32,429 bases of DNA from Spirochaetota bacterium. GTDB lineage: Bacteria > Spirochaetota > Spirochaetia > SZUA-6 > Fen-1364. The position numbers and the translations under genes were made by a program. Below, in pieces: positions 11,491-32,017 of the stretch. The stretch is from NCBI GenBank assembly GCA_026398635.1, contig JAPLSM010000360.1, positions 1 through 32,429 on the forward strand, given 5' to 3'. Within the stretch, counting starts at the first letter, position 1; the number at the start of each line of letters is the position of its first letter. The notes under the pieces were generated by a model. It saw only the letters and a program-made list of their open reading frames with translations. It ran no database searches and was not told where the DNA came from.

Positions 11491-11904
11491 TCAGGTGGCG
11501 GAAAAAATCCCATCACCTGCAGGGCAGGCAATTGTGCTACACCCCGTGGTGTATAATGGCGCCAAGTCTGTATTGAGCCTTCCCCGGTCTTCGGACGCTC
11601 TTATGCGACAGTTGTATTTCGGCTGCACTCGATTCGCGGCCGGCGTCCGGACGCTCGCCCGAACCGGGAAACACGCCTGCGCCTCGCCATGGATGTCGTG
11701 CATGTTCTCTTGTCACTCTCGGCACTCGTATTGCAGCTCCCGAGTCGGTACGTGCTCGATCTCTTCGGGCGAAAGGCCATCCGACGTGGCATGCAGCCCT
11801 TGTTGACAGGCGAGCACGAGACATGGATCAAGGCTCGAAAGCGGGAGTGGGTGATGCCGAAGCGGACGCCCTGGGCGCTCGGCGGCCTATCTGGTCTCTC
11901 TTCC

Positions 11905-11934
11905 TTGACAAACGGCATGAACGTTGTCATACAA
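11905..11934 (+). promoter_or_regulatory. Candidate promoter/operator of the GntR gene
   Basis: TTGACA 11905-11910, weak -10 CATACA 11928-11933; inverted repeat TTGT-CAT-ACAA 11924-11934 over the -10. Confidence 0.45.
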
Positions 11935-11939
11935 GATAC

Positions 11940-12659
11940 ATGTCGCGTACACCAGTGAGTAAAGACTCCCTCAAGCCAGTACGGCAAGCGCGCGTCAAGC
12001 AGCAGGTCTTCGAGCAGCTCCGCAACGGCATCGTCCGCGGCTCGTGGCCTGCAGGCACCCGCTTGCCCTCAGAGAACCAGCTCACGGTGAAGCTCGGCTG
12101 CAGCCGCATCTCGATCCGCGAGGCGCTCCATATGCTCGCGAGCTTGGGGCTGGTCGAGACCCGACATGGCGGCGGCACCATCGTCCGCCCATATTCCGGC
12201 GAGGTACTCCTGAGCCCGCTCCTCCCGATGATCGCCCTGGAGAAAACCGACATCCTGCACGTATTGGAGTACCGGCGGATCCTGGAACCCGGCTGCGTGG
12301 CGCTTGCGGTCTTGCGAGCCGGCGAGGCGGACGTAGCGGAGCTCGAGCGCGCCTGCAAGTCGTTGCGGGCATCGGCGCAGGACCTGAATGCCTTCGCGCG
12401 AGCGGATCTCGAGTTCCACTTGGCGCTCGCGCGGGCCTCGAAGAACCCGGTGCTGGTGAAGGTGAACAGCGTCATACTCGACGTCCTGAGCGCCTCCTGG
12501 GAGGAAATCGTGCGTGCGCTGGGCACGCGGGACGGGCTGCACTACCACCGCCGGATCCTCGAGGCCTTGAAGGCGCGGGACGCCGTGGCCGCCGTGGCGC
12601 TGATGGAGGAGCATATCACCCGCACCATCGATCGGCTGAAGGAGAAGGCAACTGGATAA
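11940..12659 (+). CDS. GntR-family (FadR-like) transcriptional regulator
   Basis: N-terminal wHTH VFEQLRNGIVRGSWPAGTRLPSENQLTVKLGCSRISIREALHMLASLGLVETRHGGGTIV; C-terminal FCD-like helical domain. Confidence 0.9.
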   Translation: MSRTPVSKDSLKPVRQARVKQQVFEQLRNGIVRGSWPAGTRLPSENQLTVKLGCSRISIREALHMLASLGLVETRHGGGTIVRPYSGEVLLSPLLPMIALEKTDILHVLEYRRILEPGCVALAVLRAGEADVAELERACKSLRASAQDLNAFARADLEFHLALARASKNPVLVKVNSVILDVLSASWEEIVRALGTRDGLHYHRRILEALKARDAVAAVALMEEHITRTIDRLKEKATG

Positions 12660-13500
12660 GAAGGAGATCGCGCGCATCGAGACGATGGCGGTTCGCCTCC
12701 GGCGCGACGTCGTCGAGATGGTCGGCGTGGGCAAGGCCGGGCACCTGGGGGGCTCCTGCTCGCTCGCGGAGATCGTGGCGGCCCTCTACTTCTCCCGCCT
12801 GCGCTTCAACCCCCGCCGGATCGACGATCCGGATCGTGATCGCTTCGTGCTCAGCAAAGGACACAGCGTGCTGGTACAGTACGCGGCTCTCATCGAGCTC
12901 GGGGTGATCCCACGGGAGGAGATCGGGCGCGTCAAGACGCTCGAGGGGATGCTTCAGGGGCACCCGGACATGGAGCAGACCCCGGGCCTGGAAGCGGTGA
13001 CCGGCTCGCTGGGCCAGGGGCTGTCGATCGGCATGGGCATGGCGCTGGCGCTGCGCCTCGACCGGCGGCCGAGCCGGGTGTGGGTGATCATGGGCGACGG
13101 GGAGCTCGCCGAGGGGCAGGTGTGGGAGGCCGCCATGGCCGCCGCTGCCTACCGGCTCGACCGGCTGACCGGCATCGTGGATCGCAATAGAATTCAGGCG
13201 TCTGGCCCCATCGCTGAGGTCATGCCGAATCCCGACATCGAGCGGAAGTTTGAGGCGTTTGGCTGGAAGGCCCTGACGGTCGACGGTCACGACGTCGCCG
13301 CAGTGCTGGAAGCGATGGATGAGGCCGCCGCGGTATCGGGAAGACCGACGGTCATCGTCGCGGATACCGTGAAGGGCAAGGGGGTCGCGTTCGCCGAAAA
13401 CACCGCGGCGTTCCACAACGCCATGATGACGCGCGTGCAGTACGACGAGGCACTCGTGGGGCTCGATCGTCAGCTCGCGGCCATGGGGCGGACGGAGTAG
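12652..13500 (+). CDS. Transketolase, N-terminal (TPP-binding) subunit; first ATG at 12685, conserved N-terminus suggests CTG start at 12652
   Basis: GKAGHLGGSCSLAEIVAALYF, GSLGQGLSIGMGMALALRL, VIMGDGELAEGQVWEA. Confidence 0.9.
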   Translation: MDKKEIARIETMAVRLRRDVVEMVGVGKAGHLGGSCSLAEIVAALYFSRLRFNPRRIDDPDRDRFVLSKGHSVLVQYAALIELGVIPREEIGRVKTLEGMLQGHPDMEQTPGLEAVTGSLGQGLSIGMGMALALRLDRRPSRVWVIMGDGELAEGQVWEAAMAAAAYRLDRLTGIVDRNRIQASGPIAEVMPNPDIERKFEAFGWKALTVDGHDVAAVLEAMDEAAAVSGRPTVIVADTVKGKGVAFAENTAAFHNAMMTRVQYDEALVGLDRQLAAMGRTE

Positions 13501-13505
13501 CCGTC

Positions 13506-14444
13506 ATGGAGTACCAGAAGAACCTGCGTGAAGCATGGGGGCAGGCCTTACTCGCCCTTGCCCGGAGGAACCCCGACGTCGTGGCCCTGGAGGCGGATCT
13601 GGGGAAGTCGACCCGCTCGATCCTCATGAAGGGCGAGTTCCCGGAACGCTGCTTCGAGATGGGCATCGCGGAGCAGGACATGGCCTCCACCGCAGCCGGC
13701 CTGGCACTCACCGGCAAGATCCCCTTCATGCACTCCTTCGCGGTATTTGCATCGGGCCGCGCCTACGACCAGCTCCGGAACTCGGTCTGCATCCCGCACG
13801 TGCCGGTGCGTGTCTGCGGGTCGAGCGCCGGCCTCTCCGACTTCGGCGACGGCAAGACCCACCAGGCCCTCGAGGATATGGCGATCATGCGCGCGCTGCC
13901 CAACATGACGGTGCTGTGTCCCGCGGACGGCATCGAGTGCGCCGGCATGGTCGCCGCACTGGAGACCTGGCCGGGGCCGGCGTACGTGCGCGTGAACCGG
14001 AACGACCTTCCGTTCGTCACGCCGCCCGACCGCCCGTACCGCATCGGTCCCGCCGTGGTGCTGCGCACGGGCGGCGACGCGGTCGTGTTCGCCTGCGGGG
14101 TCATGGTGTCGCGGGCCCTGGAGGCGGCCGAGCGCCTGCAGCAGGCTGGGATCTCCATCGCGGTCGTGAACGTGAGCACCCTGAAGCCAATCGACCGCGA
14201 GACCATCGTGGAGACGGCGCGAGGCGTAAAGGCCATCGTGACGGCGGAGGAGCACTCCATCATCGGCGGCCTGGGCTCGGCCGTGCTCGAGGCGCTGCGG
14301 CGCGAGCGCCACGCGCCGCTGGAGATGGTCGGGGTCCAGGACCGTTTCGGGCTTTCCGCGGCCGACTACGACGGGCTGCTCGCGCACTTCGGCCTCACGG
14401 CCGAGGCCATCGAGCGCACCGTCCGCGCGCTCCTGAAGACGTAG
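13506..14444 (+). CDS. Transketolase, C-terminal subunit
   Basis: MEYQKNLREAWGQALLALARRNPDVVALEADLGKS...FEMGIAEQDMASTAAGLA..FAVFASGRAYDQLRNSV. Confidence 0.9.
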   Translation: MEYQKNLREAWGQALLALARRNPDVVALEADLGKSTRSILMKGEFPERCFEMGIAEQDMASTAAGLALTGKIPFMHSFAVFASGRAYDQLRNSVCIPHVPVRVCGSSAGLSDFGDGKTHQALEDMAIMRALPNMTVLCPADGIECAGMVAALETWPGPAYVRVNRNDLPFVTPPDRPYRIGPAVVLRTGGDAVVFACGVMVSRALEAAERLQQAGISIAVVNVSTLKPIDRETIVETARGVKAIVTAEEHSIIGGLGSAVLEALRRERHAPLEMVGVQDRFGLSAADYDGLLAHFGLTAEAIERTVRALLKT

Positions 14445-14473
14445 GGCCAGTTGGGGCAGGACGGAGGATCCAG

Positions 14474-15358
14474 GTGACGATCGGGTTCATCGGACTGGGG
14501 ATCATGGGCAAGCCTATGGCCGCCAATCTCATGAAGGCCGGCTACCGGCTCGTGGTCCACGACGTGGCACGCGATCGGCTGAGGGAGGCCCTCGCGAACG
14601 GGGCGGAACTGGGCACCTCTCCGGCGGATGTCGCTGCCCGGAGCGAGTTGATGATCACGATGCTCCCCAACTCCCCGCACGTGAGGGAGGTGGCGCTCGG
14701 AGCGCACGGCATCGTCGAGGGTGCCCGGCGCGGCGCCATCCTCATCGATATGAGCTCCATCGCGCCAGCGACCTCGCGGGAGGTCGCCGCGGTGCTGGCG
14801 GCCAAGGGCGTGGAGATGCTGGATGCCCCAGTGTCCGGCGGCGAGCCCAAGGCGGTGGACGGCACCCTGGCGATCATGGTCGGCGGAAAGCCCGAGGTCT
14901 TCGATCAGGTGAAGGACCTGCTCCTGAAGATGGGATCGTCAGCAGTGCTCTGCGGTGGGATCGGGAGCGGCAACGTCACCAAGCTCGCGAACCAGATCAT
15001 CGTGGCGCTGAACATCGCGGCCATGTCCGAAGCCCTTGTCCTCGCTACGAAGGTCGGGGTGAAGCCGGAGACGGTGTTCAACGCGATCAAGGGTGGGCTC
15101 GCCGGCAGCACGGTGCTCAACGCGAAGGCTCCGATGGTGCTGGACGGCAACTTCAGACCCGGCTTCCGCATTGAGCTGCACATCAAGGACCTGCAGAACG
15201 CCATCGACACGGCACGCGAGGCGGGCGTGCCCATCCCGCTCACCAGCCAGGTCATGGAGATGATGCAAGCCCTCAAGCAAGACGGGAAGGCCGGCCAGGA
15301 CCATTCTGGGCTGGTCCAGTTCTACGAGAAGCTCGCCGGCGTGCAGGCGAGGAGGTAG
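14474..15358 (+). CDS. garR: 2-hydroxy-3-oxopropionate (tartronate semialdehyde) reductase-like beta-hydroxyacid dehydrogenase
   Basis: GTG start with GGAGG SD; TIGFIGLGIMGKPMAANLMKAGY, MLPNSPHVREVALG, DAPVSGGEPKAVDGTLAIMVGG, KLANQIIVALNIAAMSEAL, HIKDL: close to E. coli GarR as remembered. Confidence 0.8.
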   Translation: MTIGFIGLGIMGKPMAANLMKAGYRLVVHDVARDRLREALANGAELGTSPADVAARSELMITMLPNSPHVREVALGAHGIVEGARRGAILIDMSSIAPATSREVAAVLAAKGVEMLDAPVSGGEPKAVDGTLAIMVGGKPEVFDQVKDLLLKMGSSAVLCGGIGSGNVTKLANQIIVALNIAAMSEALVLATKVGVKPETVFNAIKGGLAGSTVLNAKAPMVLDGNFRPGFRIELHIKDLQNAIDTAREAGVPIPLTSQVMEMMQALKQDGKAGQDHSGLVQFYEKLAGVQARR

Positions 15359-15363
15359 GCCCC

Positions 15364-16023
15364 ATGCGACTCGCGGGGAAGGTGACGCTGATCACCGGGG
15401 CGGCGCAGGGCATCGGCGCGGCCACGGCGCGGCGCTTCGCCTCCGAGGGCGCCGCCGTGTTCATCGCCGATGTGAAGGCGGCGGAAGGCCAGGCGCTTGC
15501 CGCCGAGCTGGACGCGAAGGGGAACCGGGCCTGGTTTCTCCTGCTCGACGTGCGCAGCGAATCCGACTGGGCGAGGGCCTTGGAGACCGTGGCAGCGCAT
15601 GCCGGCCGCCTGGACGTGCTGCTGTGCAACGCCGGGGTCAACATCCGCGAGCCAATCGAGCAGATGAGCGAGGCAAGCCTCGACACCATGCTCGCCGTGA
15701 ACATCAAGGGCACGTTCCTTGGGATCAAGCACGCCCTGCCGCTCCTGCGGCGCGGCGGCGGCGGGACAATCCTCATCACCTCTTCGATTGCCGGCCTGGT
15801 CGGTCACCGCTACACGACGGAAGCCTATACCATGGCCAAGGGCGCACTGACGCTCCTGACGCGGGACCCGCAGCGCCGCGCGGAGCGCCTCGCGGAGGTG
15901 CCGCTGGGCCGCATGGCGAGCGTCGACGACGTGGCGAGCGCCTTTGTCTATCTGGCTTCCGACGAGGCGGCCTTCATCAACGGAGTGGCGCTGCCCGTGG
16001 ATGGGGGACTCACCGCCGGCTGA
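15364..16023 (+). CDS. Short-chain dehydrogenase/reductase, apparently internally shortened
   Basis: TGAAQGIG, NAGVN, YTMAK active site, C-terminal PLGRMASVDDVASAFVYLASDEAAFINGVALPVDGGL; segment expected after YxxxK is missing. Confidence 0.8.
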   Translation: MRLAGKVTLITGAAQGIGAATARRFASEGAAVFIADVKAAEGQALAAELDAKGNRAWFLLLDVRSESDWARALETVAAHAGRLDVLLCNAGVNIREPIEQMSEASLDTMLAVNIKGTFLGIKHALPLLRRGGGGTILITSSIAGLVGHRYTTEAYTMAKGALTLLTRDPQRRAERLAEVPLGRMASVDDVASAFVYLASDEAAFINGVALPVDGGLTAG

Positions 16024-16061
16024 GGTTGGCGGCGCGAAACGCGTTCAAGAAAGGAGGCGGT

Positions 16062-17558
16062 GTGAAGGCGACGATCAAGGTGGACGCGGAGCGGATCATC
16101 GGCAGGGTGGACCCGCTCATCTTCGGCCATTTCATCGAGCACCTTGGCCGTTGCGTCTACGGCGGTGTCCTGGACGAGCGCGGCGAGTACCGGCAGGAGC
16201 TGATCGAAGCCATGCGTCGCATCCGCCCGTCCATACTGCGCTGGCCCGGCGGCTGCTTTGCCGACGGCTACCACTGGCGAGACGGCGTCGGGCCGCGAGA
16301 CCGCCGCCCGATCCGCGTGAACCTGGCGTGGCACAACGCCGACGAGTCGAACCGCTTCGGGACCGACGAGTTCGTCGCCTACTGCCGCAGGATCGGCGCC
16401 GAGCCGTATATCTGCGCCAACGTCGGCAGCGGCACCCCAGAAGAGGCTGCCGCGTGGGTGGAGTACTGCAACGGGACCGGAGATACCGCGTACGCGAAGA
16501 TGCGACGGGACAATGGCAGCGAGCGGCCGTTCGGGGTCCGCTACTGGGGTATCGGCAACGAGATCGATGAGACGGAGCACGTCAACGAGATCGGCTGCCT
16601 CTCCGCGGAAGACTACGCGCGCGCTGTGCGGGAGTACGCCAAGCTCATGCGGCGCGTGTCTCCCGACATCAGGCTGGTCGCCGTCGGCTCCAACCGCGGC
16701 GAAGTGGACTGGAACCTCACTGTCCTCGAGAAGGCCGGCGCGTGGATCGACTACATCGCCCAGCATGGGTACTACGGGACGGACGACCACTACTCCACGG
16801 TGGCGGGGCCCATGTACGTCGAGAAGCGCATCCGCATGCTGCACGCCGCTGTCGAGCTGGCGGGCTTCACCACCGGGCTGGAGCGGCAGATCCCCGTCGC
16901 CTTCGACGAGTGGAACATCTGGTATCGTAGCAGGTCCGACACGGAGCAGCGCTTCGAGGAGGTGTACGAGCTCAAGGACGCCCTCTTCGTCGCGGGCACC
17001 TTCAATTCGCTCCAGCGGATGTGCGGCATCGTGAAGATGGCCAACCTGGCCCAAATGGTGAACGCCCTCGGCATGATTCATGTGGACGCGGATGGCATGG
17101 TGCTCTCCCCGCTGTACCACGCCTTCGACCTCTACGCGAACCACACGGGCTCGACTGTCTTCGACACCTTCACCCTTTCGGACACCTTCGACACCCACGA
17201 CCGCGGCGGGCCCCGGGGCCTGGGACCCCTCACCGGGGTTCCGTACCTCGACGCGTCGGCGACGATGCGGGAGGAGGGCAGCCGCGCGCTGTGCCTCGCG
17301 GTGGTCAACCGCCACCAGGACGAACCGATCGAATGCCAGATCCGGCTCGACGGCTTCTCCGTCGGGGACTCGGCACCGGTCTTCGAGCTCACCGGAAGCG
17401 GGCCCGGAGCCCGCAACACCCCACAAGAGCCCGAGGCGGTCTCTGTAAAGGCGCGTCCACCGATCCGCCCCGGGGCGACCTTTGTCCACACCTTCGCGCC
17501 ACGCTCGGCCACGGTGCTTGAGATCCCGATCGCCGGCCAGGGAGGGAGAGCGCCGTGA
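16062..17558 (+). CDS. Alpha-L-arabinofuranosidase, GH51 (cytosolic)
   Basis: GTG start with AAAGGAGG SD; IFGHFIEHLGRCVYGG, ILRWPGGCFADGYHWRDGVGPRDRRP, YWGIGNEIDE (acid/base), VAFDEWNIWY (nucleophile region). Confidence 0.92.
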   Translation: MKATIKVDAERIIGRVDPLIFGHFIEHLGRCVYGGVLDERGEYRQELIEAMRRIRPSILRWPGGCFADGYHWRDGVGPRDRRPIRVNLAWHNADESNRFGTDEFVAYCRRIGAEPYICANVGSGTPEEAAAWVEYCNGTGDTAYAKMRRDNGSERPFGVRYWGIGNEIDETEHVNEIGCLSAEDYARAVREYAKLMRRVSPDIRLVAVGSNRGEVDWNLTVLEKAGAWIDYIAQHGYYGTDDHYSTVAGPMYVEKRIRMLHAAVELAGFTTGLERQIPVAFDEWNIWYRSRSDTEQRFEEVYELKDALFVAGTFNSLQRMCGIVKMANLAQMVNALGMIHVDADGMVLSPLYHAFDLYANHTGSTVFDTFTLSDTFDTHDRGGPRGLGPLTGVPYLDASATMREEGSRALCLAVVNRHQDEPIECQIRLDGFSVGDSAPVFELTGSGPGARNTPQEPEAVSVKARPPIRPGATFVHTFAPRSATVLEIPIAGQGGRAP

Positions 17559-19060
17559 AGGCAAGGATCACGATCGTCCTGGACGAGAAGATCGGGACCG
17601 TCAACCGCAACATCTTCGGTCACTTCGCGGAGCACCTCGGCCGCTGCATCTACGAGGGCATCTGGGTCGGAGAGGACTCCGCAATCCCCAACGTCCGGGG
17701 GATCCGCACGGACGTGGTGCAGGCCCTGCGGCGGCTCGACCCGCCGGTCCTGCGGTGGCCGGGAGGCTGCTTCGCGGACGCCTACCGGTGGCGGGACGGG
17801 ATCGGACCCCGGAAGGACCGACCACGGACGCTCAACATCCACTGGGGGAATGCCCCGGAGACCAATCAGTTCGGCACCCACGAGTTCATCGATCTCTGCC
17901 GGCAGATCGGTGCCGAGCCCTACATCTGCCTGAACCTCGGCAGCGGCTCCCCGCGGGAGGCCCGGGAGTTGGTCGAGTACTGCAACGGCGTCGGAGATTC
18001 GACGCTGATCGAGGAGCGGCGGAAGAATGGCTCTCCTGAGCCCTTCAACGTCCGCTACTGGGGCGTGGGCAACGAGCTCTGGGGCTGCGGAGGCCACCTG
18101 CAGCCTTCCGCTTACGCTGCGGAGGTAAAGCGCTACCTCACCTTCCTGAACCACTTCGGCATCTTCAAGATCGCCTGCGGACCCCGCGGCACGAACCCCT
18201 TCGAACTACGCCGCGACTGGACCCTCGAGTTCTTCCGGGAATACGCGAAGGTGCAGCACCCGTCGCAACGCCCGGTCGACGGGTTCGCCCTTCACTTCTA
18301 CACCCGCAGCCCCGAAGCGGGTGGCGATCTTGAGTTCTCCCCCGCGGAATACTACTGGAGCATCCAGGACACCGTGCGGATGGATGGCCTGATCCGAGAG
18401 GTCCGGGCGGGGATGGACGCCTACGATCCCGGGCAGGACATCGCGCTGGTGATCGACGAGTGGGGCACCTGGCATCCGCAGGCACGCAGCGACACCGGCC
18501 TGGAGCAGCAGAACACCATGCGGGACGCCCTCGTGGCCGCGCTCAACCTCGACATCTTCGTCCGCAACGCGGACGTCGTGGCCATGGCGAACATCGCCCA
18601 GACTGTCAACGTGCTCCAGGCGATGATCCTGACGAAGGGGGAGCGGATGATCGTGACCCCGTCGTACCATGTCTTCGAGATGTACCGGCGTCACCAAGCA
18701 GCGGAATCCGTACGGGTTCTATTCGACTCTCCGAAAGCCGGCTCGGGAGCTCCTGCCGATCCGCCCGTCGTGGCCGGAGCAGCGTCCCTGAAGGACGGCC
18801 GGCTGTTCCTCACCCTCACCAACGTGCAGATCGACCAGCCGGTGGACGTGGAGGTCGTGCTCTTGGGCGGCGACCACCCCTCCGTGCGGCGAGAAACGGG
18901 ACGGCAGCTCGCCGGCACGGATGTCCGCGACCACAACAGCTTCGACCGCCCGGAGGCGGTCCGGCCGGTCGACGTTTCGCCGGTCTGGAAAGGAGGTGAT
19001 CGGTCTGTACTGCGCCTTCCCGCGCATTCCGTTTCGGCCCTGGAGCTGGAACTCGCGTGA
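17555..19060 (+). CDS. Alpha-L-arabinofuranosidase, GH51 (second cytosolic paralogue)
   Basis: GTGA overlap with previous gene; NIFGHFAEHLGRCIYEGIWVG, VLRWPGGCFADAYRWRDGIGPRKDRP, YWGVGNELWGCGG, VIDEWGTWHP. Confidence 0.92.
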   Translation: MKARITIVLDEKIGTVNRNIFGHFAEHLGRCIYEGIWVGEDSAIPNVRGIRTDVVQALRRLDPPVLRWPGGCFADAYRWRDGIGPRKDRPRTLNIHWGNAPETNQFGTHEFIDLCRQIGAEPYICLNLGSGSPREARELVEYCNGVGDSTLIEERRKNGSPEPFNVRYWGVGNELWGCGGHLQPSAYAAEVKRYLTFLNHFGIFKIACGPRGTNPFELRRDWTLEFFREYAKVQHPSQRPVDGFALHFYTRSPEAGGDLEFSPAEYYWSIQDTVRMDGLIREVRAGMDAYDPGQDIALVIDEWGTWHPQARSDTGLEQQNTMRDALVAALNLDIFVRNADVVAMANIAQTVNVLQAMILTKGERMIVTPSYHVFEMYRRHQAAESVRVLFDSPKAGSGAPADPPVVAGAASLKDGRLFLTLTNVQIDQPVDVEVVLLGGDHPSVRRETGRQLAGTDVRDHNSFDRPEAVRPVDVSPVWKGGDRSVLRLPAHSVSALELELA

Positions 19061-23027: not shown

Positions 23028-24956
23028 TCACTTCAGCTCGAACCGGAACAGCGTCACCGAGTAGGCTGGGACCTGGAGGCTCGGGACGATGGAGAGGGCG
23101 CTCTCCGTGATCGTCACGGTCGGCGGCTTGCCGGGTTGGTTGTCGCTCATTGGATCCGGGCCGGTGAGAATCCATCTCGTTCCCTGACCGGAGAGCGCCG
23201 CCGTACGGACATCAAGGCTGATATCATCGGGGAGCGGCTGGGGATTCACCACAGCAACGGTGAGGGCCTTCCCGTCCTCGGTCAACGCTGCCGAGATGTC
23301 GAGCTTCCCAGCGGTTCCGGACACCAGAACGGGAATCGAGCCGAACCGGTTTCGATAGAGGCTCAGCACGAGACCCGTGGTGTCAAACGTGGCGTCCGTT
23401 CTGGACGTCTTGATCGCGCCGATCACATTGACCGTCTGCGCGTAGTTGGCCATGAAATAGAGGTCGCTGTTGCGGAAGAAGGCATGCAGGCCCCTCGCGA
23501 TGCCCAGGGCGTCCTTGAGGTGATACTGAACGCCGAGCTCGCCGTAGATGTACCGTCCGTACCAGTAGTTCCACTCGTCCATGGCGATGCGGAGATTCCT
23601 GCCTGCAAGGGCGGGGATGGTCGTGCGGTAGTTCCGGTGGGTTCGGGCGATCCGCTCGATATCGTCCGCCAGCTGCCGGGAGTGAGCGTCCACGTCCAGC
23701 TGTTCCTTCCGATAGATGTGCTCGCTGATCAGGTCCATGTGGTCCGCGCTTCCCGCGAGAATCCCCTCGTCCCACGGTCCCACCGCGCCCACGGCGACCA
23801 CGTGGGCCGTGGGATCGATCCGCCGGATCGCGTCGACTACGCTGTTGTGCTTCCTGACGTACTGATCCAGCGGCATGTTCCCCAACTGCCACTGACCGTA
23901 CATCTCGTTCCCGACAGCCCACCAGTGAACCGGGAAAGGGTCGGGATGGCCGTTGTCCGCTCGAAGCTTCCCCATGGGCGTGATCGTTGGTCCGACGCAG
24001 TACTCCACCTCACCCGCGGCATCTTGCACGGTTCCGAGCCCCGTATTGAGCGAGACATACGGTTCAGCCCCGATCATGGACATCAGGTCCATGAACTCGT
24101 GGATGCCGACATCGTTCGACTCTACTCCCCTCCACGCCGGGTTCTGCCTGGGTGGCCGGGTATCGCGGCCGCCGATGCCGTCTCTCCAGTTGTAACCGCT
24201 CACGAAGTTCCCGCCGGGCCACCGATAGATCGGGGAGTCGAGTTCCTTGAGCAGGGCGACCACGTCCCGTCTCCACCCGTTCAACGCGTCGGCGGGCATG
24301 AGCGACAGAGCTCCTATCTCGAAGCTGCCCGCGCCGGTTCCGACGATCTCGATCCGCGCGTTGTCGCTTGTTGATGGAGAGACGAACTGGAACGAAAACG
24401 TCTTGTACTGGCGATCCGGCCTCACCTCGGTCAGCGGCGCGGCCTCTGCGGAATCTCCGACCATGCGGACCACGACGGACACGCCGGGATCCGAGGCGAG
24501 GACGACCCTTCCCGTGTAGGCCCGGCCTTGTACGAGGGCGAGCCCTTCCTGAGATATACCGACGCTGGCACCGTTCTTCGGCAGGTGCTCCACGGGGGAA
24601 TGGATTCCCGTGAAGGGGTTGTCGGTGTCCATGGAGACAGTGTTGGGCGGACCGATGACCTTCCAGGGGGAGCCCTGCAGGTAGTCGTACGACCCCGAGC
24701 CCCAGTTCGGATCCGACGTGGTCCCCCAGGGCGCGTACCGGTCCCGGATGATGAAGAAGAACTTGCGGTCTTCGAGCATCTCCGCCCAGAGCCCACCGTA
24801 GACACCGCGCCCGAGGTGCTCGATGAACTGCCCGTAGATGTACGGAGAAATCGGCGTGCCGGTGCGCGCCGTGTCGATCGCGATCGTGCGGGGCGCGCCC
24901 CAGCATGCGAAGGAGAAAAGCAGGAACGCACTAGGAAACAACGCGGGCTGTTTCAT
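23028..24956 (-). CDS. Secreted alpha-L-arabinofuranosidase, GH51 type
   Basis: Signal MKQPALFPSAFLLFSFACWGAPR; ISPYIYGQFIEHLGRGVYGGLWAEMLEDRKFF; IYRWPGGNFVSGYNWRDGIGGRDTRP; WWAVGNEMYG; IAMDEWNYWYG. The 1198-aa ORF reaching 26624 is an artefact; ATG at 24956 fits. Confidence 0.9.
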   Translation of the reverse strand: MKQPALFPSAFLLFSFACWGAPRTIAIDTARTGTPISPYIYGQFIEHLGRGVYGGLWAEMLEDRKFFFIIRDRYAPWGTTSDPNWGSGSYDYLQGSPWKVIGPPNTVSMDTDNPFTGIHSPVEHLPKNGASVGISQEGLALVQGRAYTGRVVLASDPGVSVVVRMVGDSAEAAPLTEVRPDRQYKTFSFQFVSPSTSDNARIEIVGTGAGSFEIGALSLMPADALNGWRRDVVALLKELDSPIYRWPGGNFVSGYNWRDGIGGRDTRPPRQNPAWRGVESNDVGIHEFMDLMSMIGAEPYVSLNTGLGTVQDAAGEVEYCVGPTITPMGKLRADNGHPDPFPVHWWAVGNEMYGQWQLGNMPLDQYVRKHNSVVDAIRRIDPTAHVVAVGAVGPWDEGILAGSADHMDLISEHIYRKEQLDVDAHSRQLADDIERIARTHRNYRTTIPALAGRNLRIAMDEWNYWYGRYIYGELGVQYHLKDALGIARGLHAFFRNSDLYFMANYAQTVNVIGAIKTSRTDATFDTTGLVLSLYRNRFGSIPVLVSGTAGKLDISAALTEDGKALTVAVVNPQPLPDDISLDVRTAALSGQGTRWILTGPDPMSDNQPGKPPTVTITESALSIVPSLQVPAYSVTLFRFELK

Positions 24957-25036
24957 GGATTTCTCCCGAACGCGCCGGATTCCCGATGATACTATCCGCC
25001 CCCACGGGCCGCAGCCGACGCGGAGGGCTGCCTCAG

Positions 25037-25858
25037 CTACTTGATTGCTCCCGTCAACTGCGGGGCGAGGAACCTCTGCAGGGTTATGAACAGGATGAGC
25101 AGCGGCAGCGCCGTGAGGAAGGCGCCCATGACCGTCAGGTTGTAGACCGGCCACCCGGAGGCGGAGCTGATCGTCGTGATCCCCAGGATCAGCGGGAACA
25201 CCTCGTGGCGGTTCAGCATGATCAGCGCGAGGAAGTAGTTGTTCCAGATCGCCACGAACGCGATGAGAAGGACGGTCGTAGCACCCGGAAGGATGGTGGG
25301 GAGCCCGATCCGCAGGAAGATCGTCAGCTCCCTCGTGCCGTCCATCATGGCGGCATCGAACATCTCCTCGGGGACCTGGTTCCAGTACACCACCATGAGG
25401 TAGACGCCGAAGACGTTCAGGACGGAAGGAACGATCATGGCCCACATCGTGTTCAGGATGTGGAAGTTCTTGAACTCGATGAACAGCGGGAGTGCCGTTG
25501 CGAAGTGGGGGATCATCGCGAAGCCGAGAATGAGGAAGAAGAGCAGCTTGCGGCCGAAGAATCGGTATCTCCTGAATGCGAACCCCGCCATGGCCGCTAG
25601 GAAGGTGCCCGTAATCGAGCCCACGCTGGAATAGAGGAACGAGTTCGCCAGCCAGTGCACGAACACGCCCTTGTTGTAGGCAAAGACCCCGACGAGATTG
25701 TCGATGAAGTGAATGGGGACTTGGGGCACGAACGTGCCCTCCATGAGCTGCCCGATGTCCTTCGTCGTGCTCTGCAGGAGCCAATAGAAAGGGACGAGAA
25801 AAAAAACGGCAATCAGGATCCCGACGATCTCGAACCCGGCCCGACGGGTCGCTTTCAT
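25037..25858 (-). CDS. ABC transporter permease (MalG/AraQ type)
   Basis: EIVGILIAVFFLVPFYWLLQSTTKD; MFDAAMMDGTRELTIFLRIGLPTILPGATTVLLIAF. Confidence 0.9.
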   Translation of the reverse strand: MKATRRAGFEIVGILIAVFFLVPFYWLLQSTTKDIGQLMEGTFVPQVPIHFIDNLVGVFAYNKGVFVHWLANSFLYSSVGSITGTFLAAMAGFAFRRYRFFGRKLLFFLILGFAMIPHFATALPLFIEFKNFHILNTMWAMIVPSVLNVFGVYLMVVYWNQVPEEMFDAAMMDGTRELTIFLRIGLPTILPGATTVLLIAFVAIWNNYFLALIMLNRHEVFPLILGITTISSASGWPVYNLTVMGAFLTALPLLILFITLQRFLAPQLTGAIK

Positions 25859-25891
25859 GTCCGCCGCCTTTCTCCCTCGAGGGGATGCAGA

Positions 25892-26755
25892 TCACGCATG
25901 GACGTCCAGTTCCTTCATGGATCGTCTCATGAAGAAGAAGGAGACGACGAACGTGACCGCGGCCAGGACGAGGCACATCGCGATCGCATAGGTGAAGGCG
26001 CCGTAGGCAAACGCCTGGTTGTAGACATACATCGCAGGCGTGTAGTTCATGGGAAGGGTGAAGAGCACGTTGATCATTCGGGGTTCGTTGAAGACCTGCA
26101 TGGCGCCGAAGATGTTGAAGATGAAGAGGACGAAAACCGTGTTTCTGAGAAGCGGAACCTTGATATAATACGCCACCTTCAGCCAGGTCGCCCCGTCCAT
26201 CTCCGCCGCCTCGGCGTACTCCCTGGGGATGGAAACCAGCGCGGAATAGATGACGAGCGAAGTGAATCCTGTCCATTCCCAGAGGATCATGACGAGCATG
26301 ATCCAGGGCACGCTCTTGAGGGTGATGAACTCCGGATTGGCAACACCGAACAGCTTCCAGAGCGCCACGAGCGGAGACATGGACTTGGAAAACATGTAGG
26401 ACCAGAGGATTCCCGCCACGACTCCGGGCACGGCATACGGGAGGTAGTAGAGAAATCGGTACAGGGCCGAGACTCTCACCTTCTCGTAGAGGAGCCCGAT
26501 GAAGATCGCGATCAGGATCATGCCGGGGATCTGGATGAAGAGCAGGAACAACACGATGACGAATCCCTGCCAGAACAGGGGGTCCGTGAACACGGTCTTG
26601 TAGTTGTTCAGCCCCACGTACCACATTCTCGCCCCGTGCTGTCCGAAGAAGGAGAGGTATCCTCCGTAGATCACGGGATACGCGGTCACGATGACGAAGA
26701 ATGCCAGGAAGGGCAGGAGAAACAGATAGGCCCTGATCGTCTGGAACCGCCTCAT
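25892..26755 (-). CDS. ABC transporter permease (MalF/AraP type)
   Basis: RAYLFLLPFLAFFVIVTAYPVIYGGYLSFF; EYAEAAEMDGATWLKVAYYIKVPLLRNTVFVL. Confidence 0.9.
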   Translation of the reverse strand: MRRFQTIRAYLFLLPFLAFFVIVTAYPVIYGGYLSFFGQHGARMWYVGLNNYKTVFTDPLFWQGFVIVLFLLFIQIPGMILIAIFIGLLYEKVRVSALYRFLYYLPYAVPGVVAGILWSYMFSKSMSPLVALWKLFGVANPEFITLKSVPWIMLVMILWEWTGFTSLVIYSALVSIPREYAEAAEMDGATWLKVAYYIKVPLLRNTVFVLFIFNIFGAMQVFNEPRMINVLFTLPMNYTPAMYVYNQAFAYGAFTYAIAMCLVLAAVTFVVSFFFMRRSMKELDVHA

Positions 26756-26847
26756 GTCTGCCTTTCCGCTGAACCGCTGGAATGCCGCTGCGGCATTCCT
26801 CGCACCCGCCGGAACCGTCGAACGTGATGGTTCGTACCGGCCGGCAG

Positions 26848-26887
26848 AAAAGGGGCTGCCCCAGGGTGTGCGGCCCCGAGGCAGCCC
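26848..26887 (-). terminator. Terminator-like hairpin between solute-binding protein and MalF-type permease genes
   Basis: On the minus strand GGGCTGCC (26887-26880) pairs with GGCAGCCC (26860-26853) followed by C-TTTT. Confidence 0.65.
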
Positions 26888-26932
26888 GATGATTGCGGTG
26901 GAGACCCGACCGTGCGATTCAGCTCCGTTTCC

Positions 26933-28258
26933 TCAGGGCAACTTCCCCACGATGAGGTTGTTGAATCCCTGTTTCTTCATGAAGTCGACGACGTTGGCCT
27001 CCCAGTTCTTCAGGTAGGTGGCGGCGTCTTCCGCACCGCTCACGAACTTCAGGGTTTCCTCGTTGTGGCTCGACGACACGTAGCTCATGACCGGCAGCGC
27101 CGTGAAGGCGGTGTTCACCAGCTTCATCGCATCCACGCTGACGGGCGTGATCTTCTGCTGGCCGAAATACGGATATTGAACGTTCGCCAGCTCCGGGCCC
27201 ACTTCCATGGTGAAGGTCTTGGACCAGAGGATGGGGAGCTGGCTCTTTTCGTGGAGCTGCACCAGCGACTCCTTCGCCGAGTTCAGCCAGAGGACGAAGA
27301 GCGCGGCGGCTTCGGGGTTCTTGCACTGGCTGCTCACGTAGAAGCCGGATCCGCCCATCTCGCCGTTCGTGGGATTCTTGGGGTCCCACAGCGGGGGAAC
27401 CGCAACCCTCCAGGTTCCGTCCGGGGTCTTGCAGTTCAACTGGAGCCACTCGGGGAACCATCCGCCGCACACGACCGTGGCGTCCTTGCCGTCCTTGAGT
27501 GCCGCGTACCAGTCCGCGTTCCACCACGGCTCTGCCTTAACGGACTTGTCCTTGAAGAGCTTCTCCCAGAACTGGAACACCTTCAGGGCGGTCGGGTTCT
27601 GGAAATTGATGTACCAGATCCCGTTGTTGTAGTCGAACATCTTCCCGCCGGCCTGCCAGACCAGTCCCATGGTCACGAGCACGAAGTTGGAAGGATAGGA
27701 CAGCATTGAAATGTTGGGATTGGCGGCCTTCAGCTTCGCGGCCTGGACAGCGAACTCCGCCCACGTCTTGGGCACGGTCAGCTTGTACTTGTCGAAGATG
27801 TCCTTCCGGTAGACCATGGTGCACGCGCCGCTGTCCTGAGGCGTCCCGTAAATTTGCCCGTCCATCGCGCACCATTTCAAGGTGACGTCGGGGTAGTACT
27901 GCAGGTAGGTATTGATGGGCACCCACTTGTTGATGGGCTGGTAGGTCCCGTACGACATGAACTGGGGCGCGTAGGTGTACTCGGCCATGATCACGTCGGG
28001 CAGACCGCTCCCGGCTGCTGTCGCTGTGAGGATCTGGGCATAGGGGACATTGTTGTTCGTCCAGTCGATCGTGATGTCCGGGTATGCCTTTGTGAAGAGA
28101 TCGTTGGAGAAGTTCTCGTTGCTGGTCCAGGCCCACTCGGTCAATTGCACCGGCTTGCCGGTGTACGCCGGGTATCCGCCCGGACCAGGGGCGGCAAGCA
28201 GCGGCATTGCCACGAGCACGAAAATGGTGACAACACCCACGACCCACAAACGATTCAT
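26933..28258 (-). CDS. ABC transporter extracellular solute-binding protein (MalE-like)
   Basis: MNRLWVVGVVTIFVLVAMPLLAAPGPGGYPAYTGKPVQLTEWAW..., YAQILTATAAGSGLPDVIMAEYTY; GGAGGTG SD; ATG at 28258 (longest ORF to 28384 over-extends). Confidence 0.88.
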   Translation of the reverse strand: MNRLWVVGVVTIFVLVAMPLLAAPGPGGYPAYTGKPVQLTEWAWTSNENFSNDLFTKAYPDITIDWTNNNVPYAQILTATAAGSGLPDVIMAEYTYAPQFMSYGTYQPINKWVPINTYLQYYPDVTLKWCAMDGQIYGTPQDSGACTMVYRKDIFDKYKLTVPKTWAEFAVQAAKLKAANPNISMLSYPSNFVLVTMGLVWQAGGKMFDYNNGIWYINFQNPTALKVFQFWEKLFKDKSVKAEPWWNADWYAALKDGKDATVVCGGWFPEWLQLNCKTPDGTWRVAVPPLWDPKNPTNGEMGGSGFYVSSQCKNPEAAALFVLWLNSAKESLVQLHEKSQLPILWSKTFTMEVGPELANVQYPYFGQQKITPVSVDAMKLVNTAFTALPVMSYVSSSHNEETLKFVSGAEDAATYLKNWEANVVDFMKKQGFNNLIVGKLP

Positions 28259-28307
28259 ATGACACCTCCTGCTAGACGTTTGGTTTGTCCCAAACGACTT
28301 TAGCCGA

Positions 28308-28366
28308 TTGTTAAGACGTCTTACAACATACGAGTGTTTATACACCTGATTCTGGTGCGTTGTCAA
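28308..28366 (-). promoter_or_regulatory. Promoter and palindromic operator of the SBP-MalF-MalG-GH51 operon
   Basis: Minus strand TTGACA (28366-28361) - 18 nt - TATAAA (28342-28337); near-perfect palindrome TTGTTAAGACGTCTTACAA at 28308-28326 just downstream. Confidence 0.65.
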
Positions 28367-28525
28367 GAAATATTCTGGGAACATGCGGAGTGCTCCCCCG
28401 AATTCGGGCCACTGACAGCTTCTGCTGAGCCCGGAACTCTCGGGGGCTCTTGGAGCCTCATTTTTGATGCGGGCGACCGACGTTGTACCAATCGATCCAC
28501 TGCCGGATCGCCGGGACCGGCGTGC
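28367..28525 (-). pseudogene. C-terminal remnant of an IS3-family-like transposase
   Basis: Minus strand reads AIRQWIDWYNVGRPHQK*GSKSPREFRAQQKLSVARIRGS..., the WxxWYNxxRPHQxLGxxSPxEFRAQQ tail with an in-frame stop in the expected LGY region. Confidence 0.65.
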
Positions 28526-28561: not shown

Positions 28562-29809
28562 ATGCCCTTCCCGCCCCTCGTCAGAGTCCGTCGGACGTTC
28601 GATGCGAGTCGTATCGACGACGTCGCCGGAGCCGTCCGGCGCGAGCTCGAGCGCATCCTACCCGAAGTCCCGCCCGCGGCCCCGATCGCGATCGCGGTCG
28701 GCAGCCGCGGCATCTCGGACATCCGCACGATCGTCCACGAGACGGTCCGGTTCCTGAAACTGAAAGGGGCAGCCCCCTTCATCGTACCTGCCATGGGCAG
28801 TCACGGCGGCGCGACGGCCGAGGGGCAGCGGCAGATCCTGGCCGGCTATGGGATCACCGAAGACGCCATGGGAGCGCCGGTCCGAGCCTCAATGGAGGTG
28901 GTGCGGCTGCCCGAGGAGGGTCTGGGCTATCCGGTCTACATAGACCGGCTCGCGTGGCAATCCCATGGCGTGGTCCTCGTGAACCGGGTCAAGCCTCACA
29001 CCGATTTCCACGGCTTCCCCGAAAGCGGCCTGATGAAGATGGCGGTGATCGGCCTCGGCAAGCACGCCCAGGCGCTCGTCGTCCACGCGCGGGGAGCGCA
29101 GGGCCTGGCGACCATGATCGCCCCGGCAGCGCGCCAGATCTTTACCTCGGGGAAGATCCTCGCAGGCCTCGCCGTGGTCGAGAACGCGTACGATCGGACG
29201 TGCGTAGTGCGCGCGGCCCTCCCCCGAGACATCGAGACGGTGGAACGGGGTCTTCTGGCCGAAGCTGTCGCACAAAAGCCCGGGCTTCCCGTGAGGGAGA
29301 TCGACGTACTGGTCGTCGACGAGATGGGCAAGGACGTGAGCGGCGTGGGACTCGATACGACCGTCATCGGCAGGATGCGCGTCCCCGGGGTGGAAGAACC
29401 CCGCTTGCCCGCCATCAGAGTCATCGTGGTCACGGATCTGACCGAGGCGTCGCATGGGAACGCGCTTGGCGTGGGTCTCGCCGACATCGTCACCCGGCGG
29501 CTGCAGCACAAGATCGACCCCGCAGCAACGAACGAGAACGCGGTGACGAGCACCTTCCTGGAGAGGGCGAAGGTCCCCCTGGTGGCCGAGACGGATCGAC
29601 AGGCACTGGAGATCGCCCTGCGATGCTCCCAGCCAGCGGAGGATGTCGAACCTCGGGTCATCCGCATCCGCAACACGCTTCGCCTGGACGAGCTCTACGT
29701 GTCACGGCCGGTGCTCGACCAGATGCGCGCAGCAGAGCCCGTCGAGGAACTCGGCGCATTCCAGGATCCGCTCGATGCTTCGGGCGCACTCATCCCTTTT
29801 GGCGGCTGA
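28562..29809 (+). CDS. Lactate-racemase-domain (DUF2088/LarA-like) protein
   Basis: APFIVPAMGSHGGATAEGQRQILAGYGI; VNRVKPHTDFHGFPESGLMKMAVIGLGKH; first gene of a run with DUF1537 and PdxA. Confidence 0.7.
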   Translation: MPFPPLVRVRRTFDASRIDDVAGAVRRELERILPEVPPAAPIAIAVGSRGISDIRTIVHETVRFLKLKGAAPFIVPAMGSHGGATAEGQRQILAGYGITEDAMGAPVRASMEVVRLPEEGLGYPVYIDRLAWQSHGVVLVNRVKPHTDFHGFPESGLMKMAVIGLGKHAQALVVHARGAQGLATMIAPAARQIFTSGKILAGLAVVENAYDRTCVVRAALPRDIETVERGLLAEAVAQKPGLPVREIDVLVVDEMGKDVSGVGLDTTVIGRMRVPGVEEPRLPAIRVIVVTDLTEASHGNALGVGLADIVTRRLQHKIDPAATNENAVTSTFLERAKVPLVAETDRQALEIALRCSQPAEDVEPRVIRIRNTLRLDELYVSRPVLDQMRAAEPVEELGAFQDPLDASGALIPFGG

Positions 29810-29817
29810 AGGAAGCC

Positions 29818-31041
29818 ATGAACCCCCGACTGTTCGTCATCGCGGATGACCTCACCGGAGCGCTGGACACCGGCGTCCAGTTCGCGCGCGCCGGCGTGCA
29901 GACGAAGGTCGTGACGCACGGGCATCTCGCGCGGCTCCTGCGGTTGTGCAAAGAGCCGGTCCTGGTTGTCGATACGGAAAGCCGCCACCTCCCAGCCGAC
30001 AAGGCTGGTTCCCGGGTGGCTTCGTGCGTCCGCTCGGCGCGCTCACGGGGTGTCGACCGCTTCTACAAGAAGACGGACTCCACCCTGCGGGGGAATGTCG
30101 GCGCCGAGCTCACCGCAGTCGTCTCCGCATCGGGCGGCCGCGAGCTTTTCTTCGTTCCTGCCCTGCCCAAGGCGGGACGGGTTACGCGATCCGGCGTCCA
30201 GTTCGTGGACGGCGTGCCGCTCCACGAGTCATCGTTCGCCCGCGATCCGCGTGAGCCGGTGCTCGGCACCTCGATCGAAGGGATCATAGCGACCCAGAGC
30301 GGGATGCCGGTCGTGACGGTCGGGCGCGGGGAGAACCCCGCGACAGTTCTCGCCGGGCGCGGCCGTCCGCTCATCGTAGCCTTCGACGCTGAGACCGACG
30401 GGGATCTCGAAGCCATCGCGGACCGGCTTGCGATCCGCGACATGCCGCACCTGACAGCAGGTTGCTCCGGGTTCGCCGCGTTCCTGCCCCGGCTCCACGG
30501 TCTACCGACCGGCGGATGCGACCGGATCGACATCCGGCCTCCCCTGCTCGTCGTGTCGGGCAGTCTCCACGAGCGCTCGCTCGGCCAGCTGCGCCACTCC
30601 GAGCTCCGCGGCATACCGTCGCTGGAGGTTGATCCCGAAGCTGTCACACAGTCCGGGTGGCGCCGCGCGGCCACGCGGACGATTGTCGGACAGCTGCGGG
30701 AGCATGGGACCATGATCGTTCGCACCCGCCCGGGCCTCGCCGCCCCGCCGCCTACCGCCGAGACGCTGCTGCGGGGAATCGGGTGCCTGGTACGGCGAAT
30801 CATCAGTTCGACGGCCGTATCGACGATCGCGCTGTTTGGCGGCGACACGGCATTCGCGGTCGTCGAGGCCCTGGGCATCTGGGGTCTCGATCCGGTGGGA
30901 GAGATCTGCCAGGGCGTGGTGGTATGTCGCGCCAAGGGGTCGCGGGATCTCGGCGTGCGCAACCTAGTTACTAAGGCCGGCGGATTCGGTCCTGTCGACG
31001 TTGTCGACCGGATCGTGGGCGCACTCGAGCAGGAGGCGTAG
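29818..31041 (+). CDS. Four-carbon acid sugar kinase family protein (DUF1537)
   Basis: MNPRLFVIADDLTGALDTGVQFARAG; RFYKKTDSTLRGNVGAEL; ALPKAGRVTRSGVQFVDGVPLHESSFARDP; FGGDTAFAVVEALGI. Confidence 0.92.
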   Translation: MNPRLFVIADDLTGALDTGVQFARAGVQTKVVTHGHLARLLRLCKEPVLVVDTESRHLPADKAGSRVASCVRSARSRGVDRFYKKTDSTLRGNVGAELTAVVSASGGRELFFVPALPKAGRVTRSGVQFVDGVPLHESSFARDPREPVLGTSIEGIIATQSGMPVVTVGRGENPATVLAGRGRPLIVAFDAETDGDLEAIADRLAIRDMPHLTAGCSGFAAFLPRLHGLPTGGCDRIDIRPPLLVVSGSLHERSLGQLRHSELRGIPSLEVDPEAVTQSGWRRAATRTIVGQLREHGTMIVRTRPGLAAPPPTAETLLRGIGCLVRRIISSTAVSTIALFGGDTAFAVVEALGIWGLDPVGEICQGVVVCRAKGSRDLGVRNLVTKAGGFGPVDVVDRIVGALEQEA

Positions 31042-31042
31042 C

Positions 31043-32017
31043 ATGGCAATCGCCGTCACGATGGGGGACCCGGCAGGCGTCGGCCCCGAGCTGATCCTGA
31101 AGGCCTTCCTCGATGGGAGCGTTTCCTCGGGATTCTTCGTCGTGGGCGACCTCGATGTGCTCGCCGCCTGCAACGAAGCGCTTCGGCTTGCCGTCCCGCT
31201 CCGCGTCGCCGCCGACCACCGTGACCTGCAGAGCAGGTACGTGAATGTCCTCGATGCCGGCATCATCACGAGGGGCGACGTGACACCCGGGACGATGTCC
31301 CGGCGCTGCGGCGAGGCGGCCAAGATATATATCCAGACCGCGGTCCGCATGGCGCTAGCCGGAAGCGCGAACGCCCTGGTCACGCTGCCGGTGAGCAAAG
31401 AGGCCGTGCGCCTCTCGGACCCGTCCTTCCGCGGGCACACGGAGCTGATCGCCGGGCTCTGCGGCGCCGCAGGCGTCGTGATGATGCTCCACTCGCCGAA
31501 GCTCGTCGTGACCCATGTCAGCACCCACGTGCCCCTCCGGGAAGCGATCCACGGCGTGACTAAGGAGCGCGTCCTGGAGGTGATCAGGCTCACCGCCTCC
31601 GCGCTGCGGACACTAGGAGGAGGATCGCGAATCGCCGTTGCTGGTCTCAACCCCCACGCGGGCGAAGGCGGCGCATTCGGTACCGAGGAGCGGGGAGAGA
31701 TCGCGCCCGCGGTGGCTGCCGCGCGGGAGGAAGGGATCGACGCGCACGGACCGTTCCCCCCCGACACCGTGTTCCGACAGGCAACGGGCGGCCACTACGA
31801 CGCCGTCGTCTGCATGTACCACGACCAGGGGCACATCCCGATGAAGCTGCTGGATTTCGAAGGCGCGGTGAACGTGACGATCGGCCTTCCCATCGTCAGG
31901 ACATCCGTCGACCATGGGACGGCGTTCGACATCGCGTGGAGAGGCGTCGCTTCGACGGGCAGCTACGCAGCGGCCTTTGCGCTCGCGCGAAAGCTCTACG
32001 GCGCGGACCGTTCCTGA
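31043..32017 (+). CDS. PdxA-family 4-phospho-sugar-acid dehydrogenase (PdxA2-like)
   Basis: MAIAVTMGDPAGVGPELILKAFL; LPVSKEAVRLSDPSFRGHTELIA; AGLNPHAGEGGAFGTEE; CMYHDQGHIPMKLLDFEGAVNVTIGLPIVRTSVDHGTAFDIAW. DUF1537 neighbour supports PdxA2. Confidence 0.92.
   Translation: MAIAVTMGDPAGVGPELILKAFLDGSVSSGFFVVGDLDVLAACNEALRLAVPLRVAADHRDLQSRYVNVLDAGIITRGDVTPGTMSRRCGEAAKIYIQTAVRMALAGSANALVTLPVSKEAVRLSDPSFRGHTELIAGLCGAAGVVMMLHSPKLVVTHVSTHVPLREAIHGVTKERVLEVIRLTASALRTLGGGSRIAVAGLNPHAGEGGAFGTEERGEIAPAVAAAREEGIDAHGPFPPDTVFRQATGGHYDAVVCMYHDQGHIPMKLLDFEGAVNVTIGLPIVRTSVDHGTAFDIAWRGVASTGSYAAAFALARKLYGADRS

Follow-up and report, generated by a model that had tools for sequence, protein, structure and literature searches.

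What does a LarA-like protein do immediately ahead of a kinase and a dehydrogenase for four-carbon (C4) acid sugars? The question is raised by three consecutive genes in a 32,429-nucleotide stretch of DNA from a Spirochaetota bacterium (contig JAPLSM010000360.1 of assembly GCA_026398635.1); we refer to this whole stretch as the window. Gene 1 encodes a LarA homologue of the family known as group 22, gene 2 a DUF1537 kinase and gene 3 a PdxA2-type 4-phosphate dehydrogenase. We propose that the triple is a catabolic module in which an epimerase dependent on the nickel-pincer nucleotide (NPN) cofactor inverts C2 and feeds the D-threonate branch, most likely by converting D-erythronate to D-threonate. 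We give this reading a probability of about one half. An earlier note on this DNA had described the genes as a same-strand triple with almost no spacing, and all three open reading frames are indeed open, at the coordinates and with the gaps listed in Table 1.

Precedents exist for the chemistry. In LarA enzymes, the proton-coupled transfer of a hydride inverts the configuration at C2 of a 2-hydroxy acid (PMC12611868, PMC11770544). LarA homologues interconvert 4-deoxy-D-threonate and 4-deoxy-D-erythronate, acting promiscuously (PMC11770544), and gluconate and mannonate are likewise epimerised by LarA homologues (PMC7583248).

Four parts of the pathway are inferred: that NPN is used, that gene 1 acts as an epimerase, that its substrate has four carbons, and in which order the steps run. 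The group-22 enzyme would take the C2 hydrogen of its substrate as a hydride onto NPN, with a 2-keto acid as the intermediate, and would give the hydride back to the opposite face of C2; His81 and His146 would be the two acid/base residues. D-Threonate (2S,3R) would thereby arise from an acid sugar whose C2 has the wrong configuration, D-erythronate (2R,3R) being the most likely one. The DUF1537 kinase would then make the 4-phosphate, and PdxA2 would oxidise C3 with loss of CO2 to yield dihydroxyacetone phosphate (DHAP).

Why D-erythronate? At C2 and C3, D-threonate 4-phosphate matches the geometry of 4-phosphohydroxy-L-threonine, on which PdxA usually acts; D-erythronate 4-phosphate is the C2 epimer of D-threonate 4-phosphate. 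A C2 epimerase is thus what the entry of D-erythronate into a kinase/PdxA2 pathway would require.

The three gene products

What we report on family membership, fold, residue conservation, gene order and the recurrence of the linkage was read directly from the output of the tools. Gene 1 scores 491 bits against the NCBIfam model NF052515, 'nickel pincer cofactor-dependent isomerase, group 22', over its curated cut-off of 400. Judged by sequence, it is a full member of group 22 and not an aberrant LarA. The model for nickel-dependent lactate racemase (NF033504, cut-off 460) gave no match to it at E <= 1, and the Pfam domain Lar_N scores 22.3 bits with the trimmed protein and 23.4 bits with the whole frame (cut-off 23.3). 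Searches of the PDB sequences with phmmer and with profiles found no relative of gene 1; fold comparison alone gave matches. With an AlphaFold2 model of high confidence (predicted local distance difference test, pLDDT, 95.4; predicted template modelling score, pTM, 0.92), the best Foldseek match in the PDB was 9eia (E 5.4e-11, probability 1.00, TM ~0.55). All 15 matches at E < 0.001 belong to the LarA family, namely LarA, Mar2 and the single-histidine LarAs of 2025.

Are the catalytic residues present? We took residue equivalences from a profile-profile alignment with canonical LarA, in the numbering of the L. plantarum enzyme, and conservation from an alignment of 75 group-22 relatives. The two catalytic histidines, the lysine that carries the cofactor and the nickel-binding histidine all have invariant counterparts (Table 1). 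R49, the phosphate-binding arginine, is also invariant and aligns with R75 of LarA. The earlier note had called gene 1 LarA-like and had named a profile search and a structure prediction as checks; with the NF052515 score over its cut-off, a LarA fold in the model and the pincer ligands kept, the identification is borne out.

That note had also pointed to an odd motif, at residues 143-159, as a sign that cofactor or substrate use may differ. The deviation is real: the spacing from His to Lys is 13 rather than the canonical 10, a loop longer by three residues. No ligand is lost, the variant is common to the whole group, and the spacing from Lys to the nickel-binding His is 16, the same as in canonical LarA. 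Since the loop variant is group-wide and the ligands are kept, the motif alone is no argument for another cofactor. The host genome holds two more LarA homologues: a canonical LarA on contig C65 (L001 838-2271, minus strand; 493 bits) and a distant, hexonate-epimerase-like protein on contig C302 (L002 1360-2691, plus strand; 160 bits, below cut-off).

The kinase encoded by gene 2 has both DUF1537 domains (PF07005, 166 bits; PF17042, 65 bits). Its best kinase model is that for D-threonate kinase, NF047819, at 214 bits versus 105 for 3-oxo-tetronate kinase, and the closest PDB chains are 4xfr and 4xfm. It appears to lie nearest the D-threonate-kinase-type members of DUF1537.

Does the epimerase act first, and on D-erythronate? 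It may instead act after the kinase, turning D-erythronate 4-phosphate into D-threonate 4-phosphate, or on an L-series or another short acid sugar. Gene 2 is only a distant relative of D-threonate kinase, and the sequence is compatible with either order of the steps; PdxA-type enzymes, on the other hand, suit the C3 geometry of the D-series. DUF1537 kinases take several C4 acids (PMC7954711, PMC10580937), whereas the LarA homologues characterised so far in PMC11770544 and PMC7583248 use unphosphorylated 2-hydroxy acids. We regard a different entry point as a real but minority possibility.

The last step of the proposed D-erythronate route would fall to gene 3 (PF04166, 332 bits). Its PDB ranking is led by 6e85, a D-threonate-4-phosphate dehydrogenase (268 bits), followed by PdxA2 2hi1 (265) and E. 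coli PdxA (184). Against the equivalog model NF002891 it scores 291 bits and does not reach the cut-off of 583; the model is narrow, and the shortfall weakens the claim of orthology for gene 3, not its likeness. Gene 3 thus looks like a catabolic-type PdxA2, and oxidation of D-threonate 4-phosphate is its predicted reaction. The identities that the earlier note had assigned to the kinase and the dehydrogenase are supported by the D-threonate-type nearest matches of both genes.

Could the kinase and PdxA serve vitamin B6 synthesis through 4-hydroxythreonine, with the LarA-like gene an incidental neighbour? Reactions of 4-hydroxythreonine are within reach of DUF1537 and PdxA2 enzymes (PMC7954711, PMC9997740), and gene 3 is the sole PdxA of the host assembly (3.94 Mb in 491 contigs, completeness ~95%). 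PdxJ was not found in that assembly, however, so that the pathway dependent on 1-deoxy-D-xylulose 5-phosphate is not completable, and a vitamin B6 role for PdxA was discarded on this ground. Gene 3 is, moreover, nearest the catabolic PdxA type. We consider this explanation of the triple extremely improbable.

Recurrence of the linkage

Is the arrangement peculiar to this contig? A neighbourhood survey, as the earlier note had proposed, covered 80 group-22 loci from GTDB species genomes with flanks of up to 8 kb; counts of kinase and PdxA loci include split or cut genes. The kinase is present at 12 of the 80 loci and PdxA at 12, with either at 14 and both at 10. No DUF1537 or PdxA match in these loci is more than three genes away from the group-22 gene, and for this reason the linkage is beyond chance. 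The link between the LarA-like gene, the kinase and PdxA recurs across many phyla: eight of the 14 linked loci are from Bacillota, and Bacteroidota, Atribacterota, Planctomycetota, Actinomycetota, Spirochaetota and Chloroflexota contribute one each, making seven phyla. Gene orders vary as well (G22-K-P, K-P-G22, P-x-K-G22 and divergent, where G22 is the group-22 gene, K the kinase and P PdxA). On a maximum-likelihood tree the linkage label needs 10 changes, gains or losses, at least four of them forced by supported branches. In a second survey, of 33 further Spirochaetota loci drawn with hidden Markov models (flanks up to 6 kb), kinase and PdxA were both present at three, two of these in the closed genome G311. 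Two Bacillota loci, L056 and L061 (6845-12116), have the group-22 gene with PdxA and no adjoining kinase; L061 also carries a dihydrodipicolinate synthase (DHDPS)-type aldolase and an IlvD/EDD dehydratase, a mixed arrangement.

The wider neighbourhood of group 22 is rich in enzymes and transporters. The enzymes include IlvD/EDD dehydratases, galactarate/altronate dehydratase, enolase-superfamily dehydratases, DHDPS-type aldolases, FAD-linked oxidases, Gfo/Idh/MocA oxidoreductases and aldehyde:ferredoxin oxidoreductase; the transporters, for carboxylates, are GntP permease, TRAP (DctP/Q/M) and Tct. This context fits an acid-sugar epimerase. Aldehyde:ferredoxin oxidoreductase adjoins the group-22 gene at a subset of the Spirochaetota loci (L176, L181, L184, L185 and L187).

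A sequence signature of kinase linkage, D148/H150 of the PHTDFHG loop, was considered and rejected. VKPHTDFH was among the search patterns used to draw the relatives, and in a larger set the association is not significant (p ~0.2). Within the alignment, D148 is found in 15 of 15 linked members versus 33 of 60 others. The Treponema-containing clade mostly has A148, and its three linked members stand out there only. As a mark of linkage, the D148 pattern is a hint.

Several observations weigh against the D-erythronate route. At 214 bits gene 2 is well under the NF047819 cut-off of 450, and its family leaves the substrate unfixed. The canonical LarA substrate segment Y-Q-x-x-K is not conserved in group 22, which has an invariant G-K-x-x-S-G-x-x-x-D segment close to that position. 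The closest Spirochaetota relatives of gene 1 (53-56% identical) lack an adjoining kinase or PdxA, and neither enzyme is found at 66 of the 80 group-22 loci. Group 22 is absent from the activity Table 1 of PMC7583248 and from the enzymes studied in PMC11770544. PMC7583248 also cautions that the activity of LarA homologues was often not predicted by their genomic context. Finally, the host assembly gave no match to LarC, and none to LarE that exceeded the cut-off, a point taken up below.

The 66 loci that lack both partners also bear on another explanation, in which gene 1 would racemise an accessory 2-hydroxy acid (glycerate, lactate or similar) and would be linked to the kinase/PdxA2 pair by shared regulation only. 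The promiscuity of LarA enzymes (PMC11770544) agrees with it. The repeated change of adjacency, in various orders and phyla, points instead to a direct metabolic link, and we think a purely regulatory connection unlikely. We keep to the epimerase entry that the earlier note had put forward, which might take the place of a dehydrogenase branch. The LarA fold, the residues, the types of kinase and PdxA2, the recurrent link and the acid-sugar context of group 22 all stand; the argument from the odd motif to another cofactor does not.

Cofactor supply in Spirochaetia

How would such an epimerase obtain its cofactor? As the earlier note had observed, no larB, larC or larE lies in the window. The genome-wide check that it had called for found LarB on contig C356 (222 bits). 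Weak LarE-like matches in the host genome were set aside; the best of them appears, by its own sequence, to resemble GMP synthase. In six other genomes that bear the linkage, LarB, LarC and LarE are all over cut-off. Partial sets also occur: G311, a single contig, has LarC only, G406 has LarB and LarE without LarC, G410 has LarE only and the host genome LarB only.

The absence of LarC is widespread in the class to which the window belongs. We compared classes across Spirochaetota genomes with a completeness of 90% or more and a contamination of 5% or less: LarC accompanies canonical LarA in 16 of 50 genomes of Spirochaetia versus 24 of 27 of other classes. LarC is present in only nine of 23 well-assembled Spirochaetota genomes that carry group 22. 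Neither LarB nor LarE was over cut-off in any of 25 LarC-negative genomes with LarA homologues, five of the genomes negative for all three being single contigs. Yet D72, R75, H108, H174, K184 and H200 are all conserved in those canonical LarAs that were inspected from genomes lacking LarC.

One explanation is that the gene 1 protein is NPN-free in this organism, as the cell cannot make NPN, and has another function or is inactive. The missing LarC and LarE of the host and the scarcity of LarC among group-22 Spirochaetota are in line with this. The ligand residues of group 22 are nevertheless invariant, canonical LarA in this class, too, often occurs without LarC and keeps all its ligands, and the assembly, although fragmented, contains LarB. 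We judge an NPN-free protein quite unlikely. The more general argument against NPN use by group 22, drawn from the lack of LarC in most group-22 Spirochaetia, was rejected as specific evidence, since LarC is missing beside canonical LarA as well, ligands intact.

These results suggest that many Spirochaetia import NPN or make it by a route invisible to the models used. A bolder statement combines this with the proposed pathway: the triple would be an undescribed NPN-epimerase route for D-erythronate, and both its epimerase and the canonical LarAs would, in Spirochaetia, run on NPN not made with LarB, LarC and LarE, implying uptake or other synthesis. Taken as a whole, the combination is rather unlikely.

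Surroundings and known systems

Genes for an ATP-binding cassette (ABC) transporter diverge from the triple (Table 1), and a GH51-like arabinofuranosidase gene (NCBIfam) comes after the two permeases. The transporter genes and the triple possibly share a control region, and the transporter is a candidate member of the pathway. An arabinan-use island surrounds the triple: genes for GH51-like arabinofuranosidases (at least three) and for two sugar ABC transporters lie at 15624-19060 and 23031-28384. At 11823-15358 lie a GntR/FCD regulator, a transketolase split in two genes and a tartronate-semialdehyde-reductase-like gene (482 bits, cut-off 397), which form a second sugar-acid or sugar-phosphate module within the window.

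Table 1. Features of the triple and the divergent transporter, in window coordinates
Feature	Position	Strand	Remarks
Group-22 LarA homologue (gene 1)	28562..29809	+	415 aa; putative C2 epimerase, NPN-dependent, for a short sugar acid
His81 (catalytic His108 of L. plantarum LarA)	28802..28804	+	Invariant in the alignment of 75; profile-profile alignment
His146 (catalytic His174 of LarA)	28997..28999	+	Invariant in the alignment of 75; profile-profile alignment
Lys159 (Lys184, covalently NPN-bound in LarA)	29036..29038	+	Invariant in the alignment of 75; aligned
His175 (Ni ligand His200 of LarA)	29084..29086	+	Invariant in the alignment of 75; aligned
DUF1537 four-carbon acid-sugar kinase (gene 2)	29818..31041	+	407 aa; 8-nt gap after gene 1
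PdxA2-type 4-phosphate dehydrogenase (gene 3)	31043..32017	+	324 aa; 1-nt gap after gene 2
Divergent ABC-transporter sugar-binding protein	26933..28384	-	PF01547, 106 bits, and NCBIfam; true start probably near 28258
Two ABC permeases, after the sugar-binding protein	26755-25892, 25858-25037	-	PF00528, NCBIfam

How does the triple compare with known systems? The D-threonate branch of DUF1537/PdxA2 catabolism was reportedly described by Zhang et al. 2016 (PNAS; cited by PMC9997740 and PMC7954711). As in that branch, a DUF1537 kinase adjoins a PdxA2-type 4-phosphate dehydrogenase and DHAP is the expected product. Unlike that branch, the triple has a LarA-superfamily epimerase as its first gene, and its cluster adds no dehydrogenase, isomerase or aldolase gene. 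The oxidative route for C4 acid sugars shares with the triple its substrates, the DUF1537 kinase and the DHAP end; it enters by NAD-dependent oxidation of C2 and isomerisation, whereas in the triple the configuration at C2 would be inverted with no net oxidation and PdxA2 would be employed.

Within the LarA superfamily, D-gluconate 2-epimerase GntE (LarAH19/LarAH20, PMC7583248) resembles the proposal in that NPN-dependent C2 epimerisation routes one aldonate into the pathway of another; it belongs to a different group of LarA homologues (LarAH), acts on a hexonate instead of a C4 acid and has another specificity loop. The LarAs of L. plantarum (5huq) and I. pallida (9eia) share with gene 1 the fold, both catalytic histidines, the cofactor lysine and the nickel histidine, and differ from it in the longer loop, in the replacement of their substrate segment described above and in overall sequence (12-17% identity). 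The single-histidine LarAs (group 17 type; LarA Bw and LarA Sp, PMC12611868) are, like group 22, a carbohydrate-linked subfamily with no known substrate; they lack the second catalytic histidine, which group 22 retains.

In the literature compared, which stopped short of the COG-neighbour Table S1 of PMC7583248, DUF2088 is tied to C4 acid sugars only through the 4-deoxy assays of PMC11770544. We found no earlier description that combines the known LarA superfamily with the known kinase/PdxA2 pair, though that Table S1 might hold one.

If the proposed route is correct, a substrate class open to testing would be available for the first time for group 22, a large LarA group without reported activity. 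For four-carbon acid sugars, products of the breakdown of ascorbate and of sugars, there would be a non-oxidative, C2-inverting entry akin to that provided by gluconate epimerase. The missing cofactor genes, in turn, make bacterial acquisition of NPN testable in closed Spirochaetia genomes.

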